Source of the DNA: Candidatus Thiodiazotropha endoloripes
Lineage (GTDB): Bacteria > Pseudomonadota > Gammaproteobacteria > Chromatiales > Chromatiaceae
Direction: 5' to 3'
Assembly (NCBI RefSeq): GCF_001708965.1
Contig: NZ_LVJW01000003.1
Coordinates: 124,001-188,000, forward strand
Length of the DNA: 64,000 nucleotides
The notes beneath the pieces were generated by a model that did not search any database, was not told the DNA's origin, and was given only the letters and a program-made list of their open reading frames with translations. How positions within the stretch are numbered: the stretch's first letter is position 1; each line of letters opens with the position of its first letter. This document shows positions 25,833 through 32,559 of this stretch, one piece after another. The position numbers were made by a program, and so were the translations under genes.

Positions 25833-26349
25833 TCAGCCTTAAGTGTAAAAAAAGCGTGATTCTATCCCGCATTGTCTGGCGGGTCACCATTGTTGGTAAA
25901 TCGGACTCTGCTTGAACTGACTGGCGGCAACGAATGCGCTCGGTTTTGATGCCTAGATCAGCACCTCCCTAGCGAAAAAAACGCCAGCATGTTATCGAGT
26001 TGAGGCAGCTGTTGCTGCATGGGTGGATTCTCCATCTCTACTCCGGTGATGACCTGGGAGAGTGCCTGACCTGGATGATGGTCAACCAGCCGGAGCGGGT
26101 ATCCATTATGGTTGCCAGAACTTTTGAGACCCCTTTTTCTCTTCAGACGGAAACTACCTGTCATCCCAGGGCCTATTGGATTGGTGTTCACAGACCCTGA
26201 CACTCTCTACTTTCCGGTCGATTGATTGGGCAGGACCAGTGACCCGCGCAATCCTGGGGCCGACGGCCATCAATGAGTGACTGGCTGTGCAGTCTGAAGC
26301 ACTCTGCCCTCCCTGGCCTCAACCGCTGGTCGTTTTGCGGCCGGTTCGG
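25833..26349. other. 517-base gap between proS and the cytochrome b gene
   Basis: I see no gene here. The two short frames on either strand have no family features. A recurrent intergenic motif occurs as two facing copies (about 26165-26178 and 26186-26200). Confidence 0.5.
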
Positions 26350-27060
26350 CTACGGCTCATCCTTCACGGCAATCGCATGAGTCTCTTCGATGTAGGCGAT
26401 CTCTGCTTCAGTCAACTCGATGTTGTCGTAACCGGTCACCATGGTCTTGATGTAGTGGGTGGGTGTCTTGCCCGTTGTGGTCATGTAGATATGGATGATC
26501 ACGAAGGTACCCATCAGGAATGCCGCTGCGGTATGGATGAAGGCGATCAGGGTCAAGCCGTTAGCCGACCAGCTATGGCCGCTCCACAGGTCGTACACCA
26601 AATAGATGATCCCGGAGGCCCAGAGGGCAGGACCGATCAGCACCATGAATGACATGTAGGCCATCGACTGGAGGGCGTTCTGTTTCCTTTGGAGCCCTTT
26701 CTTGTAAGGGTGAGGTTCACCGACAAGAATACCGTAGGCATAAAAGCGGATGACCTTCAGCACACCCTCTTTGAACAGATATTGCCGCCATTGGCCGGTG
26801 GTGAAATTCCAGAAGGTGGTAAAGACCCAGAGTACGATCAGCGCCAGTGCCCCGTAGGTATGGATCACCACGGCGGTCTGAAAATCGAGCAGGTCATGGG
26901 TGCCGTGCAGACCCAGTCCGGTGTAGAACAGGGTGAAAATCAGTATCGCCTGAGACCAATGCCAGAAGCGCTCGTAACGGCTGTAGATCATGACATAGTG
27001 TTTTTTGCCCCGTGTCTTGACCTTGGTGTTTTGGCTTGAGTTGTTGGTTTGACTGCTCAT
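26350..27060 (-). CDS. Di-heme cytochrome b (formate dehydrogenase gamma/b561-like)
   Basis: This 236-residue membrane protein has four hydrophobic helices and histidines placed as heme ligands: YERFWHWSQAILIF at helix 1, AVVIHTYGALAL at helix 2, and two in the last helices (LIAFIHTAAAFLMG, VIIHIYM). It should exchange electrons between the quinone pool and the periplasmic octaheme cytochrome. Its ATG overlaps the stop of the octaheme cytochrome gene by four bases, so the two are translationally coupled and likely form one complex. Confidence 0.88.
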   Translation of the reverse strand: MSSQTNNSSQNTKVKTRGKKHYVMIYSRYERFWHWSQAILIFTLFYTGLGLHGTHDLLDFQTAVVIHTYGALALIVLWVFTTFWNFTTGQWRQYLFKEGVLKVIRFYAYGILVGEPHPYKKGLQRKQNALQSMAYMSFMVLIGPALWASGIIYLVYDLWSGHSWSANGLTLIAFIHTAAAFLMGTFVIIHIYMTTTGKTPTHYIKTMVTGYDNIELTEAEIAYIEETHAIAVKDEP

Positions 27061-28751
27061 TGTGCACCTCCCTGTGATGGTTTCTTACCGAAGACCTTGC
27101 GCAACAGGGCGTGCAGCAGTACACCGAGCAGTGCACCGCCGAGCGCGAGATAACCCAGAATATCGAGCCAGCCAAAGCTGTCCCGTCCAGGCATGTAGAA
27201 ACCGTTCAGATCGGCCAGCCGCCCCTGCTTGCTATGGCAGTCGGCACAATCCATGGCATCCTCTTTGGGAGCAACCATATGGGTGATTGGCCAGAATGAG
27301 TAGGTCTCGACGAAATCGAATTCGCCACTGTAGGGCACACGGTTTTTTTCCATGCCCACCTTGATGGCTCGGCCGAAATCGTAGTTGCCCCAATAGGCGT
27401 CCCCGTCGTCACCCCACAGGTGCATATAGACCATGGTGTTGTTGCCTTTGTCATAGGGCTGGATGGTATGCATGCGTTTGAACGGCCAGATGCGGGATTG
27501 GCCGTCGTTGTGGCTGCCCTGATAACCGTTGATCTCAATCGGCCCCTGGCTGGGATCGAATTTGGTTTCGATGGTGGTGTAATTCATCTGCCCATCAAAC
27601 CAATCGTAATGGGGTACCAGGTTTTCCGCGTATTCAAAGCTACCCTTGATCGATTTATAGGTGGCCCGATGGGTGCCGTTGGCCTGGGTGTAGTTCTTCT
27701 CCTTGAAGCCGGCGCCTTGCTTGGTTTTGCCTGCAGTACGCCAGTCCCAGTCCACCATGGTGGCAACACCGCCGCGGGCGATGGTTGGGATATGGCAGGT
27801 CTGACAGGCAATTTTATCGGTATGGCCATTCAGCTTGATGCCGACCAATGTGCTGTAGTCGTGGGGTGCTTCGCTATGGCAGGATTCGCAAGTGGCCACA
27901 TCCCGACGCTCACCGGGAAGACCCAACCCCTCGGTATCATGTGCGATCACGTTATAGCGGCTGCCAGCCCAGATATGCTGTCGGGTAACATGACAGGTCG
28001 TGCAGGCGAAGTTCAGACCTTCGGCGTCCATGTGCACATCCAGTTCACGGCTGGGCCGCTTCAGGGATGAATCCAGGTCACCATGTTTGACTCCATCACC
28101 ACCGCCGCCATAGAAGTGGCAGGAGCCACAGTTTTCCCGTCCAGGTTTACCCACATTTTGGGCCACCTTGCTCCACTCGATCGGTTTTTTGCCTTCAAAC
28201 ATGATTGAACAGGCTCTGTTGCCGGTTGAGTTGGGGGTTTTGTGGTAGCTGCCGGTGCGGTCGTGACAGACCAGGCAGTCGATGTTCTCCTGTTTGGAGA
28301 AATCAAAGTTTTCATCCTTCCAGCCATAGCCGGCATGGCATTGAGCGCACATCCCCTCATTGCCTTTTGCGTTGGTGCAGAAGGTGTTGATCAGGGTCTT
28401 CTTACCCAGCTTCTGGCCACTGGCCGGATGATCGTACTCCCAGGTCCAGTGAATCGACTGCATGAAGTGACGGCCCGCTTCGGTGTGACATGAAAGGCAG
28501 GCTTCCGTTACTTGCGGACCACTCTTGAAATCCTTCTGCAGGATTTCGAATTTGCTATGGTCGGCGGTTGATTCCCCATCATCCCGGATACTCGGTCCGG
28601 TATCCTCGATGATGCGAAAATTCATGTCACTGTCCACCGGTTGACTGCTGTGATCCTCAGTAGCCTGGGTGGGGTGGGGCAGGATCAATATCAGGGTACA
28701 TACGCCGGCCCTGATACCGGACTTGGCAGCCAGTAAGCGTTGTTTATGCAT
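27057..28751 (-). CDS. otr: Octaheme c-type cytochrome, tetrathionate reductase (Otr) family
   Basis: This 564-residue exported protein contains exactly eight CXXCH heme sites: CLSCH, CAQCH, CLVCH, CGSCH, CTTCH, CESCH, CQTCH and CADCH. Length and the spread of motifs match octaheme tetrathionate reductase, known from Shewanella, which can also reduce nitrite and hydroxylamine in vitro. The N-terminus is a signal peptide. Near the C-terminus GYLALGGALLGVLLHALL is a membrane anchor, which the soluble Shewanella enzyme lacks, so this form is probably bound to the membrane next to the cytochrome b. ATG 28751 gives the signal peptide; 28787 has no ribosome binding site. Confidence 0.9.
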   Translation of the reverse strand: MHKQRLLAAKSGIRAGVCTLILILPHPTQATEDHSSQPVDSDMNFRIIEDTGPSIRDDGESTADHSKFEILQKDFKSGPQVTEACLSCHTEAGRHFMQSIHWTWEYDHPASGQKLGKKTLINTFCTNAKGNEGMCAQCHAGYGWKDENFDFSKQENIDCLVCHDRTGSYHKTPNSTGNRACSIMFEGKKPIEWSKVAQNVGKPGRENCGSCHFYGGGGDGVKHGDLDSSLKRPSRELDVHMDAEGLNFACTTCHVTRQHIWAGSRYNVIAHDTEGLGLPGERRDVATCESCHSEAPHDYSTLVGIKLNGHTDKIACQTCHIPTIARGGVATMVDWDWRTAGKTKQGAGFKEKNYTQANGTHRATYKSIKGSFEYAENLVPHYDWFDGQMNYTTIETKFDPSQGPIEINGYQGSHNDGQSRIWPFKRMHTIQPYDKGNNTMVYMHLWGDDGDAYWGNYDFGRAIKVGMEKNRVPYSGEFDFVETYSFWPITHMVAPKEDAMDCADCHSKQGRLADLNGFYMPGRDSFGWLDILGYLALGGALLGVLLHALLRKVFGKKPSQGGAQ

Positions 28752-28843
28752 CTTGAATCCGTGATGACGGTTATGACCGCGACACATAAACAGCTTCGGC
28801 CCGGTCCTGTTCGTTCCTACCTGAGCTTAATTCAGGTACTCAA

Positions 28844-28960
28844 TTAAGGGAGTGTTTCGTCCCCGCGGGGCTGAGCGTACTCGGCTTCGTACCACATGAC
28901 ATTGATAATTCCCAATGCCAATGCCGGCAGTACGCCAACAACCCTGGTGAAGTACCCCAT
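28844..28960 (-). CDS. cydX: CydX-like small membrane protein
   Basis: A 38-residue frame that is easily missed. Its sequence MGYFTRVVGVLPALAL followed by GIINVMWYEAEYAQPR has the plan of CydX (YbgT family), the small subunit of cytochrome bd oxidase: Y-F near the start, one membrane helix, G-I-I-N then W-x-E-A. The usual Trp at position 2 is Gly. It lies 33 bases downstream of a cydB remnant, the normal cydAB-X order. No clear ribosome binding site precedes it, and the cydA and main cydB parts are missing here. It may be an intact relic or serve a bd oxidase encoded elsewhere. Confidence 0.65.
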   Translation of the reverse strand: MGYFTRVVGVLPALALGIINVMWYEAEYAQPRGDETLP

Positions 28961-28993
28961 AAAGAAATTTCTTAATATTTAATGCTTTACTGT

Positions 28994-29220
28994 TTAATAG
29001 GCTGATCTGCAATTATGTATCTCTTGAATGCAGAGACGCTCCCTCATGTTTCGATAGTTCAGGCGATGTATGCGATCGCGATGGGCAGAAAGATCGGCAA
29101 CGCCCAGAGCATCACAGTCAATGTGAGATGGCTGGATGTAGCGTCCCAAACCGTCAGGCTACAGGGACCAATACCGGTTACTGACAGTCCAGAAGAAAAT
29201 ATGTAAGTGTCTGTTTTTTT
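28994..29220 (-). pseudogene. cydB: Remnant of cydB (cytochrome bd oxidase subunit II), C-terminal end
   Basis: On the minus strand an open frame without a start codon encodes SLTVWDATSSHLTLTVML followed by a hydrophobic segment and a TGA at 29059-29061. This matches the conserved C-terminal end of CydB (SLT-x-WDATSS-x-LTL-x-VM). Restoring one base at the TGA joins it to a second frame, YRNMRERLCIQEI, ending at TAA 28994-28996, which is the expected CydB tail. So the gene is frameshifted and lacks its N-terminal 80 percent or more. Upstream of about 29220 the frame stays open but I see no further CydB similarity. cydA is absent. Confidence 0.78.
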
Positions 29221-29359
29221 TAGCAGCTTGTCCCAAGTTATATCGAGGGGGATGTAACTTGCAGAAGCTTCATAGAGAGACCGGATCCCGGCCTGCTGCG
29301 GGATGATCAGGATTAAAATTCGAATACTATTGACAACTATTTGCGCTGATTAGCGCCCA

Positions 29360-29704
29360 CTAGAATGTTGCGGAGTTCCAGCCCCACAGATGGCGCTCCG
29401 CGGAACTGAACTCGATATAGACTCGGTCTTCCGGGATGTGCAGCTGCTGCTGCATCAGCAGACAGAGCAGCTTGGAGAAATCCCCGGTACGATCCCCGGG
29501 CAGTCCGATGCTTTTCAGCTCCAGGTAGGCGGTGGTAGCGGTGGTGCCGTTGAAGATCATGTGAGGACTGTGCACGTAGTCGACCATCACATAGCGCTCC
29601 GGTTTACCCAACATCTCGGCGACTGTTGCCGAGGCGGTTGTCAGCAGCTCCTTCAAGCGGTCTTCATCAACGGTCTGATTGGTGGTGATTCTGAGTAGTG
29701 GCAT
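29360..29704 (-). CDS. MIF/phenylpyruvate tautomerase family protein
   Basis: This 114-residue protein belongs to the MIF branch of the tautomerase superfamily. It has Pro after the initiator Met (the catalytic base in this family), the KPERYVMVDYVHSPHMIFNG segment near the middle and a C-terminal ERHLWGWNSATF. Such proteins tautomerise phenylpyruvate in vitro; the bacterial role is unclear. It is 6 bases downstream of the DUF4124 gene and probably cotranscribed with it. The cydB remnant begins about 140 bases past its stop. Confidence 0.88.
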   Translation of the reverse strand: MPLLRITTNQTVDEDRLKELLTTASATVAEMLGKPERYVMVDYVHSPHMIFNGTTATTAYLELKSIGLPGDRTGDFSKLLCLLMQQQLHIPEDRVYIEFSSAERHLWGWNSATF

Positions 29705-29710
29705 ATCGTT

Positions 29711-30151
29711 CTACTTACAATACTCTTCGATCTGTTGTTGCGCTTCCTCAATCCGCTCCTGCTTCTGCTCATCCGAGAGTCGCAGATACTCGTCGCCGGC
29801 TTTATAGAGACGGTTACCCAGGCTCTTCAGGGTCTGTAGATTTGACCTGGCCGCCTTGCAGTTCTCTTCGCGCAGCTTCCGGCTCTCCTGACTCTCCTTC
29901 TGTTCAGCCTTTTTCAGGGCTCTGTCCTCTTCCCGGTCTGCCAGCTCCTGGCGTAACTTCTGTAAACGCTGTTTGGCTGCCGCCGCATCGCTGGAGGGAG
30001 CGCTGTAGGTCTTGACCACTTCGGATTCGCCCTGGGGAGGTGGTGTTTGAGAGTAGGTGACGACACCATCCTCGTTTACCCAGCGGTAGGTTTCTGCGGA
30101 TATTGCGGTAGAAATCAGTAACGGAAGTATGAGGAGGATTCTTGATTGCAC
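29711..30151 (-). CDS. Exported DUF4124 protein with coiled coil
   Basis: This 146-residue protein has a signal peptide (core LLILPLLISTAISA), then a DUF4124 domain with ETYRWVNEDGVVTYSQTPPP, and a long charged coiled coil rich in Glu, Lys, Arg and Gln. DUF4124 proteins are common in gammaproteobacterial envelopes; their role is unknown. GTG 30151 is chosen as start because AGGGA precedes it and it places the signal peptide first; the longer frame from 30238 has no such support. Confidence 0.86.
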   Translation of the reverse strand: MQSRILLILPLLISTAISAETYRWVNEDGVVTYSQTPPPQGESEVVKTYSAPSSDAAAAKQRLQKLRQELADREEDRALKKAEQKESQESRKLREENCKAARSNLQTLKSLGNRLYKAGDEYLRLSDEQKQERIEEAQQQIEEYCK

Positions 30152-30260
30152 TGCAGGTTCCCTGTCAATCCGGTTGCACGATTGATTGATATTATGGGGC
30201 ATGGGCGGTTGATGGCAAGCCACAATCAGTGAAATCACACCATGACAGGGGTATATCCGC

Positions 30261-30289
30261 TTGACCTGCTAGTGGAGTATTAGTATTTT
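30261..30289 (+). promoter_or_regulatory. Candidate sigma-70 promoter of ilvBHC
   Basis: TTGACC at 30261-30266 and TATTTT at 30284-30289 are separated by 17 bases, about 60 bases before the ilvB start. I see no attenuator-type leader peptide in the short stretch between. Confidence 0.4.
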
Positions 30290-30349
30290 GCACTGTTTCG
30301 ATATTGTTTTTGCGCTCGACAGACAAATCGGCGCAACTGGAGGCATCAC

Positions 30350-32068
30350 GTGGAACTAAGCGGTGGCGAGATCATCGTTCAATGTTTGAGAGATGAAGGC
30401 GTAGAGCATGTTTTCGGCTACCCTGGTGGGGCCGTTCTGCATATCTACGATGCACTCTTCAAACAGAAAGAGCTGAAGCACATCCTGGTACGTCATGAAC
30501 AGGCTGCCGGACATGCCGCGGACGGCTATGCCCGTGCCACCGGCAAGCCCGGTGTGGTACTGGTAACCTCAGGCCCAGGCGCGACCAATGTGGTCACCGG
30601 CGTTGCCACCGCCTTTATGGATTCCATTCCTATGGTGGTGCTGACCGGACAGGTACCGACACCGGTGATCGGCAGTGATGCCTTTCAGGAGGTTGATACC
30701 GTCGGTATCACCCGCCCCTGCGTGAAGCATAATTTTCTGGTCAAGCGGCTGGAGGATCTGGCTGACACCATTAAAAAGGCGTTCTATATCGCCACCACCG
30801 GACGACCTGGTCCCGTGGTCATCGATATCCCCAAGGATATTACCGATCCCGGCATCAAGATCCCCTACCACTATCCGAACAAAGTGAAGATGCGTTCCTA
30901 CAATCCGGTTGTGAAGGGGCATCTGGGGCAGATCAAGAAGGCGGTCAAGATTCTGATGGAAGCGGAACGCCCGGTCTTCTATACCGGTGGCGGTGTGGTG
31001 CTGGACGATGCAGCCAAGCCGCTCACCGACCTGGTGGATACCCTCGGTTTCCCGATTACCCAGACCTTGATGGGACTGGGCGCCTATCCTGGCAGCGGCA
31101 AGAACTTTCTCGGCATGCTGGGGATGCATGGTACCTATGAGGCCAACATGGCGATGCATGAGACTGACGTGCTGATCGCTGTCGGTGCCCGCTTCGATGA
31201 CCGGGTTACCGGCCACGTCAAGCAGTTCTGTCCCGATGCGACCATCATCCATGTGGACATAGACCCCTCATCCATCTCCAAGAACGTGCGGGTCGATGTG
31301 CCGATTGTCGGACCGGTCAAGCAGGTGCTGAAGGACATGCTCAAGGTGGTCAATGAGGGCGACAAGAAGCCGAAGCAGCAGTCGCTGAAAAAGTGGTGGA
31401 AGCAGATCGACAAATGGCGCGCCATGGACTGCATGAAGTACGACAAAAAGAGCGAGCTGATCAAGCCCCAGCAGGCGGTTGAGGTGCTGCACAAGGTAAC
31501 CAAGGGCGACGCCTATGTGACCTCCGATGTGGGGCAGCACCAGATGTTCGCCGCTCAGTTCTATCGCTTTGACAAACCCCGTCGCTGGATCAACTCCGGT
31601 GGTCTGGGCACCATGGGCTTCGGTCTGCCGGCGGCGATCGGTGTACAGATGGCCCATCCCAAGGCGGATGTGGCGGTGGTCACCGGTGAATCGAGTATTC
31701 AGATGTGTATCCAGGAGCTGGCCACCTGTCTGCAGTACGATCTGCCGATCAAGATCATTCTGTTGAACAATGGCTACATGGGTATGGTTCGTCAGTGGCA
31801 GGAGTTCTTCTACGACAGCCGCTACTCCCAGTCGGGGATGAGTGTGACACCGGATTTCGTCAAGCTGACCGAGTCCTATGGACATATCGGCATGCGTGTC
31901 GAGAAGTCGGAAGATCTGGAAGGGGCGATGAAAGAGGCCTTCTCCCATAAAGATCGTCTGGTGTTCCTGGATGTGGTGGTCGACCCGTCTGAAAATGTCT
32001 ACCCGATGATTGCGGCGGGCAAGGGGCATCACGAGATGTATCTGTCACCTGGGAGTGAGTTGGTCTGA
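30350..32068 (+). CDS. ilvB: Acetolactate synthase large subunit
   Basis: This 572-residue thiamine-diphosphate enzyme condenses two pyruvates, or pyruvate with 2-oxobutyrate, in branched-chain amino acid synthesis. Landmarks are VFGYPGGAVLHIYDAL with the following RHEQAAGHAADGYARATG (catalytic Glu), the FAD-binding middle domain, and the C-terminal ThDP domain with TGESSIQMCIQEL and LLNNGYMGMVRQWQEFFY. The canonical GDGSF of the ThDP motif reads GESSI here. The start is GTG 30350 with GGAGG six bases upstream. It overlaps ilvH by one base. Confidence 0.96.
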   Translation: MELSGGEIIVQCLRDEGVEHVFGYPGGAVLHIYDALFKQKELKHILVRHEQAAGHAADGYARATGKPGVVLVTSGPGATNVVTGVATAFMDSIPMVVLTGQVPTPVIGSDAFQEVDTVGITRPCVKHNFLVKRLEDLADTIKKAFYIATTGRPGPVVIDIPKDITDPGIKIPYHYPNKVKMRSYNPVVKGHLGQIKKAVKILMEAERPVFYTGGGVVLDDAAKPLTDLVDTLGFPITQTLMGLGAYPGSGKNFLGMLGMHGTYEANMAMHETDVLIAVGARFDDRVTGHVKQFCPDATIIHVDIDPSSISKNVRVDVPIVGPVKQVLKDMLKVVNEGDKKPKQQSLKKWWKQIDKWRAMDCMKYDKKSELIKPQQAVEVLHKVTKGDAYVTSDVGQHQMFAAQFYRFDKPRRWINSGGLGTMGFGLPAAIGVQMAHPKADVAVVTGESSIQMCIQELATCLQYDLPIKIILLNNGYMGMVRQWQEFFYDSRYSQSGMSVTPDFVKLTESYGHIGMRVEKSEDLEGAMKEAFSHKDRLVFLDVVVDPSENVYPMIAAGKGHHEMYLSPGSELV

Positions 32069-32559
32069 TGAGGCATATCATATCTATTCTGATGGAGAAC
32101 GAGTCCGGTGCACTGGCGCGGGTGGCCAATCTGTTTACCGCCCGGGGCTACAACATCGAGTCCCTCACCGTGGCGCCGACTGAGGATCTGAGTCTGTCCC
32201 GTATGACCCTGGTCACCAGTGGCAGTGATGAGATCATCGAGCAGATCACCAAACAGCTGAACAAGCTGGTGGATGTGGTGAAGCTGGTCGATCTCACCGA
32301 AGGGGGTCATCTTGAGCGGGAGATGATGATGATCAAACTGCGTGCTGAGCGCACCCAACGGGAGGAGATCAAACGACTGGTCGATATCTTCCGTGGCAAG
32401 ATCATCGATGTCACCGATACCAGCTACACCGTTGAACTGACCGGTGCGGCCAGTAAACTTAACGCCTTCATCGAGGCGGTGAACGAAGAGCTGATCATCG
32501 AAGTGGTGCGAACCGGCCCTTCCGGCATCGGTCGCGGTCCAAAAGGCTTGAGTCTGTAA
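32068..32559 (+). CDS. ilvH: Acetolactate synthase small (regulatory) subunit
   Basis: This 163-residue protein has an N-terminal ACT domain (ISILMENESGALARVANLFTARGYNIESLTVAPT), the valine-binding part that gives feedback control. The ALS_ss C-terminal domain follows. It activates the large subunit. Its ATG shares a base with the ilvB stop (TGATG), so the two subunits are made together. Confidence 0.96.
   Translation: MRHIISILMENESGALARVANLFTARGYNIESLTVAPTEDLSLSRMTLVTSGSDEIIEQITKQLNKLVDVVKLVDLTEGGHLEREMMMIKLRAERTQREEIKRLVDIFRGKIIDVTDTSYTVELTGAASKLNAFIEAVNEELIIEVVRTGPSGIGRGPKGLSL

Follow-up and report, generated by a model that had tools for sequence, protein, structure and literature searches.

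A promoter-like element inside a dead cydX gene upstream of otr in Candidatus Thiodiazotropha

Introduction

What does selection preserve when an operon decays in front of a gene that survives? The question is raised by a 64,000-nucleotide stretch of a Candidatus Thiodiazotropha genome (hereafter, the window), in which remnants of a cytochrome bd oxidase operon lie upstream of otr, encoding an octaheme tetrathionate reductase-family cytochrome. An earlier note proposed that a deletion or rearrangement had removed the oxidase, perhaps leaving its promoter or its small subunit to otr. Here, we report that the preserved part is a promoter-like element within the dead cydX gene, rather than a gene or the promoter of the operon itself.

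The relic and its neighbors

The cydB–cydX relic occupies window positions 28844-29160 on the minus strand. It and the surrounding features are as follows; G012 is a congener with an intact operon.

29161..29359, minus strand: diverged relic of the tautomerase–cydA intergenic region (cyd promoter region); local alignment to G012 exceeds all 500 shuffles
28994..29160, minus strand: 3' end of cydB, pseudogene; PF02322 E 2.1e-7; 84% DNA identity to G012
28844..28960, minus strand: cydX, open 38-codon frame, decayed; PF08173 above cut-off
27057..28751, minus strand: otr, octaheme tetrathionate reductase-family cytochrome; TIGR04315 E 1.5e-184
26350..27060, minus strand: cytochrome b561-type membrane partner; PF01292 E 6.7e-24
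25901..26164, minus strand: cydD relic, pieces of residues 5-95; tblastn against G012 CydD E 3e-7

Profile searches bear out the identification of a CydB end and a CydX on this strand. The cydB frame that closes at TGA 29059 aligns with positions 262-296 of 302 in PF02322 and, at E 3.8e-7, with positions 322-353 of 378 in TIGR00203. Both scores fall under the curated cut-offs, as the gene is reduced to its end, approximately the last 52 of 379 codons, starting from SLTVWDA and frameshifted. As the earlier note had it, the frame breaks at TGA 29059-29061, and the remainder resumes in the next frame, up to TAA 28994. Specifically, one G has been deleted (CTGGAACTATCG in G012, CTG-AACTATCG in the window). 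From the cydB relic through cydX to the start of otr, the window and G012 are 84% identical in DNA. The CydX frame passes the PF08173 cut-off (E 1e-7, 32.3 bits versus 26.2) and falls just under that of TIGR02106 (28.2 versus 31.6).

The reading of the frames as CydB stands up to position 29160 and fails beyond it: the frame upstream (...FSSGLSVTGIGPC) is the diverged region that precedes cydA, fused to cydB at a TAG(T/C)CT / CAGTCT-like site. Its local alignment to G012 scores 85.5, versus a mean of 60.9 and a maximum of 82 for the shuffled sequences. The window encodes no complete CydB membrane protein together with cydA, and a genome-wide search of the source genome (4.46 Mb, 12 contigs, 99.95% complete) found no cydA and no second cydB or cydX. 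Four PF00115 matches mark haem-copper oxidase-family genes that are retained.

Downstream, Otr scores 614 bits against TIGR04315 (cut-off 375), a profile match that places it in this family. Translation of otr likely starts at ATG 28751 (MHKQ) and not at 28787; the latter is probably too early because 1-base indels in congeners break the frame between the two. The otr leader (TTTATGTGTCGCGGTCATAACCGTCATCACGG...AAGATGCATAAAC, window 28751-28795, minus strand) is conserved across the genus despite these indels. We do not claim a start-codon hairpin there (GTTTATG/CATAAAC; fold z -2.0); it is broken in G002 and G013, and inspection of 16 leaders by eye revealed no compensating changes. An Rfam search over 26000-32500 found no RNA family. 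The b561 partner adjoins otr in all related loci, and the cydD relic (blastn E 3e-31) sits before proS. Two further observations concern otr itself. A second octaheme cytochrome (G000:C3:1959503-1961014, L106), 53% identical to the window Otr, is encoded in the source genome and in most congeners, and the otr of G011 (L059, 3682-5414) is split into two overlapping frames, reflecting either an assembly error or an early pseudogene.

A conserved block with a promoter-like layout

Between the tautomerase gene and otr, species that lack cyd have little in common except a 20-base block, TTGGGAATTATCAATGTCAT, and a TA..CT motif. The block lies at 28915-28896 in the window, within the cydX codons for LGIINVM. 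It shows almost no variation across all 16 species retaining this otr, 14 of which have lost cydAB, and TA..CT is invariant in the same 16, exactly 16 bases past the block, with no insertion or deletion between the two in any species. Each of the 16 carries a single copy of the block in its genome, with 0-1 mismatch. The block was not found near the locus in G003, G006, G017, and G020, genomes in which otr has been lost (L144, L145, L147, and L148, respectively); this co-occurrence leaves out G014 and G008, because of contig ends. A pattern search recovered 14 of the 16 species; it required GTA at a point where G004 and G018 read ATATCCT. As side observations, the sole other near match to the block in the source genome (G000:C3:1757287-1757306, 2 mismatches) lies near apparently unrelated genes, and in G006 the C-terminal end alone is left of the b561 partner.

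The following elements are predicted:

28902..28915, minus strand: predicted FNR-type operator TTGGGAATTATCAA; near-invariant in 16 of 16 otr-bearing congeners; matches TTGATnnnnATCAA at 8 of 10 positions
28897..28902, minus strand: predicted -35 hexamer ATGTCA (4 of 6 positions), part of the near-invariant block and 17 bp upstream of the -10
28874..28879, minus strand: predicted -10 hexamer TACGCT, with TA..CT invariant in 16 of 16
28867, minus strand: predicted otr transcription start, +/- 2 nt, placed by class II promoter geometry only

The TTGGGAATTATCAA sequence resembles an FNR site, and its center lies 29 bases upstream of TACNCT in all 16 species, that is, at -41.5 if TACNCT is the -10. 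With TACNCT taken as the -10, the operator and ATGTCA, as a -35 with a 17-base spacer, account for the ends of the block. Together, the block and TA..CT are laid out like a class II promoter of the FNR type that faces otr. In E. coli, the site of most FNR-activated promoters lies near -41.5, commonly as a partial match (PMC3688515). The source genome codes for FNR-like proteins (L156, L157) that have cysteines of the cluster type and ExxSR in the recognition helix. From this arrangement we infer promoter activity, its direction toward otr, and FNR as the activator. The predicted -35 and -10 are weak and a generic sigma-70 scan found nothing above its threshold, as expected if the promoter is weak and activator-dependent.

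The earlier suggestion of a promoter left to otr is thus upheld in kind but not in place. The element is located within cydX, not in the promoter of the cyd operon itself, whose FNR box (TTGATTTTTATCAA, upstream of cydA in G012) has been destroyed in the window. That box is still there in G013, G015, and G009, which lack cyd.

While the right half-site reads ATCAA, the left half-site, TTGGG, departs from the FNR consensus, so another CRP/FNR-family protein could be the one that binds. The same departure lends something to a different explanation, namely, that the block is an otr-linked element of another kind, either the site of a different regulator (DNR- or NnrR-like) or a working part of a longer leader RNA. 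Conservation does extend past the 14-bp operator, and the otr leader further down is conserved too. We consider this explanation unlikely, given that the spacing fits class II promoters exactly, that the -10 is invariant, and that the ATCAA half-site and the -35 account for the block ends.

Decay of the cydX frame

Judging by its changes, the window cydX is a pseudogene with an open frame. It carries the substitutions W2G, W6R, S11L, and L12P, and so has lost two tryptophans of the conserved CydX N-terminus, MWYFxW; no cydAB accompanies it. The ribosome-binding site is gone, the upstream GAGGAG having become AAGAAA. Codon changes relative to G012 number 9 nonsynonymous and 4 synonymous in cydX; in otr, the corresponding figures are 39 and 111. 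A transcript begun at the predicted otr start would not include the cydX start codon.

These data bear on the suggestion that CydX was kept as a small subunit for otr and, more generally, on the notion that a short CydX-like peptide is still made, for otr or for another complex, with LGIINVM conserved as protein sequence. The 38-codon frame is indeed open in the window, and G004 and G018 have longer open stretches. Nonetheless, most relatives have no intact CydX frame, and the window copy has neither the ribosome-binding site nor the conserved tryptophans and has accumulated more nonsynonymous than synonymous changes. Around the block, the frame is interrupted by stops in three species (G016, G015, and G005) and bears radical replacements in others, while the codons of the block are identical even at synonymous positions. 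Selection therefore acts on the DNA, not the protein. The small-subunit proposal is not supported, and we regard continued production of a peptide as very improbable.

Substitution rates across the locus

Parsimony on the tree assigns 3 changes to the 20 block columns, 45 to the 16 spacer columns, and 113 to the 33 columns after the -10. Among the 14 species without cyd, the block has 3 changes in its 20 columns versus approximately 59 expected from the flanks (2.96 changes per column in ungapped flanks; Poisson P 7e-22), and the four -10 positions have 0 changes versus approximately 3 per column nearby (P 7e-6).

Could the whole relic nonetheless be decaying debris, with the block a functionless remnant kept by chance or recent common ancestry? 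The window cydX and cydB are plainly decaying. However, flanks with approximately 3 changes per column surround a block with 0.15 on the same tree, and the block persists in lineages whose deletion breakpoints differ. The substitution counts refute the debris explanation unless the block was copied between species without its flanks, and we give it scarcely any credence.

Repeated loss of the oxidase

In G012 (JAKSBX010000110.1), the locus reads, from ilvB to the contig end, tautomerase-cydA-cydB-cydX-otr-cyt b561-cydD-cydC. In G021, a Ctena orbiculata symbiont, the contig ends inside cydA, and cydB-cydX-otr-cyt b561-cydD-cydC-proS follow. The window's ilvB, tautomerase, otr, cyt b561, and proS match the flanks of these intact loci. 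Since intact operons occupy the same place, the window relic is a deleted cydABX operon. Comparison with related genomes, which the earlier note had recommended, thus confirms its view that deletion removed cydA and most of cydB. In the window, the sequence upstream of cydA was thereby brought up against the last ~52 cydB codons. A different deletion, from approximately cydA codon 35 into cydX codons 4-7, is present in G016 (Ca. T. endoloripes), G007, and G010, and falls within a common ACCTGGAT-type stretch.

Insertion of cydABX before otr in G012 and G021, from an ancestor that lacked it, would fit the presence of full cydB in only these 2 of the genus genomes examined, but the chance of it is close to negligible because species without cyd have relics of cydA, cydB, cydX, and cydD, which refute insertion into a bare ancestor for the window, G016, G007, and G010, and the G012 and G021 copies are old relative to each other (84% identity in CydB, 63% in CydD, 59% in CydC).

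In a tree of the locus genes, G012 and G021 fall in separate, well supported clades, and G015, which lacks cyd, is the sister of G021 with 100% support. On this tree, at least two independent losses, together with three deletions, follow from the strongly supported nodes and the breakpoints. Our estimate for the genus is about seven losses, a tree-dependent figure that assumes losses only from one origin and in which some nodes are weak (56-86%). In a survey of Ctena symbionts, cytochrome bd occurred mainly in one symbiont type while cbb3 and aa3 oxidases were general (PMC6712303), a pattern that agrees with the loss of bd oxidase found here.

Origin of the element

In relatives, cydX genes with no otr behind them (G024, G025, G042, and Marinobacterium) encode FGII.., reading TTC and not TTG, and have no TACNCT. 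The promoter bases are therefore linked to otr and not to CydX. The cydX of G024 already carries ATTATCAATGTCAT, without otr, and we infer from it that the element arose from cydX coding sequence, as opposed to being an older otr promoter over which cydX had spread. In G030, of a sister genus, otr lies beside metH (named by eye) without cyd, and a search upstream of it found no cyd relic. Approximately 184 bases upstream of this otr match (L076) is TTGCGAATTATCAATG, nearly a copy of the operator, which is either a common older promoter or a moved cydX fossil. Across 24 otr promoters outside the genus, the combined score for operator and -10 peaks at a distance of 29 among the distances 22-37 (16.67 versus 15.0-16.1 at the 15 others), a modest peak in partly related sequences.

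Proposed history and comparison with known systems

We consider it probable, with good confidence, that a promoter for otr arose within cydX and persisted after the operon was lost in separate deletions of the bd oxidase, and we propose FNR-type activation. The ancestral operon would have been cydABX-otr-cyt b561-cydDC, between the tautomerase gene and proS. The 3' half of cydX would have doubled as the otr promoter, with a CRP/FNR-family site at -41.5, ATGTCA, and, past a 17-bp spacer, TACNCT. Binding of an FNR-type activator to the site when oxygen is low would bring in sigma-70 RNA polymerase for transcription of otr and its b-type partner. The oxidase would then have been lost through separate deletions in several lineages, the window's among them. 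Deletions that removed the promoter would silence otr, so surviving otr genomes would retain exactly that piece of cydX. On balance, we also favor the broader proposition that a coding stretch, cydX from LGIINVM to Y-A/P, was recruited as the otr promoter, became the sole part of the operon under selection, survived approximately seven oxidase losses, and persists upstream of otr beside metH in G030.

The locus amounts to a natural experiment, in which the death of an operon lets selection show which bases its neighbor needed. Some 14 genomes with differing deletions keep the same 20 bases and the -10, which would map a promoter in uncultured symbionts without recourse to expression data. The case offers an explanation for why gene relics can persist before working genes, and an example of coding sequence co-opted for regulation. 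For the symbionts of lucinids, it is a record of the bd oxidase being lost repeatedly and otr being retained, apparently under the control of low oxygen.

Three known systems invite comparison. Like the class II FNR-activated promoters of E. coli (nirB, narG, dmsA, and nrfA; PMC3688515), the predicted otr promoter has a site that is centered at -41.5 and close to TTGATnnnnATCAA, has a weak -35 and -10, and lies upstream of a periplasmic respiratory reductase. Unlike them, it has a non-consensus left half, TTGGG, and is embedded in the coding region of an upstream gene that is unrelated and that it has outlived. The cydABX operon (bd-type quinol oxidase; PF02322, PF08173) is recognizable by its cydA-cydB-cydX order with cydDC nearby in G012 and G021, and in the window by the CydB end and CydX; unlike such an operon, the window has no cydA, has lost approximately 86% of cydB, and holds a decayed cydX with no other copy in the genome. 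Finally, intragenic promoters exist inside bacterial operons. A literature search for such promoters that persist where the host gene is gone turned up nothing closely comparable, which is weak evidence, as most subscription papers lay outside the search. The element described here resembles intragenic promoters in that the promoter of a downstream gene would lie inside upstream coding sequence, and differs from them in that the host gene has been lost repeatedly and the putative promoter is its only conserved remainder.
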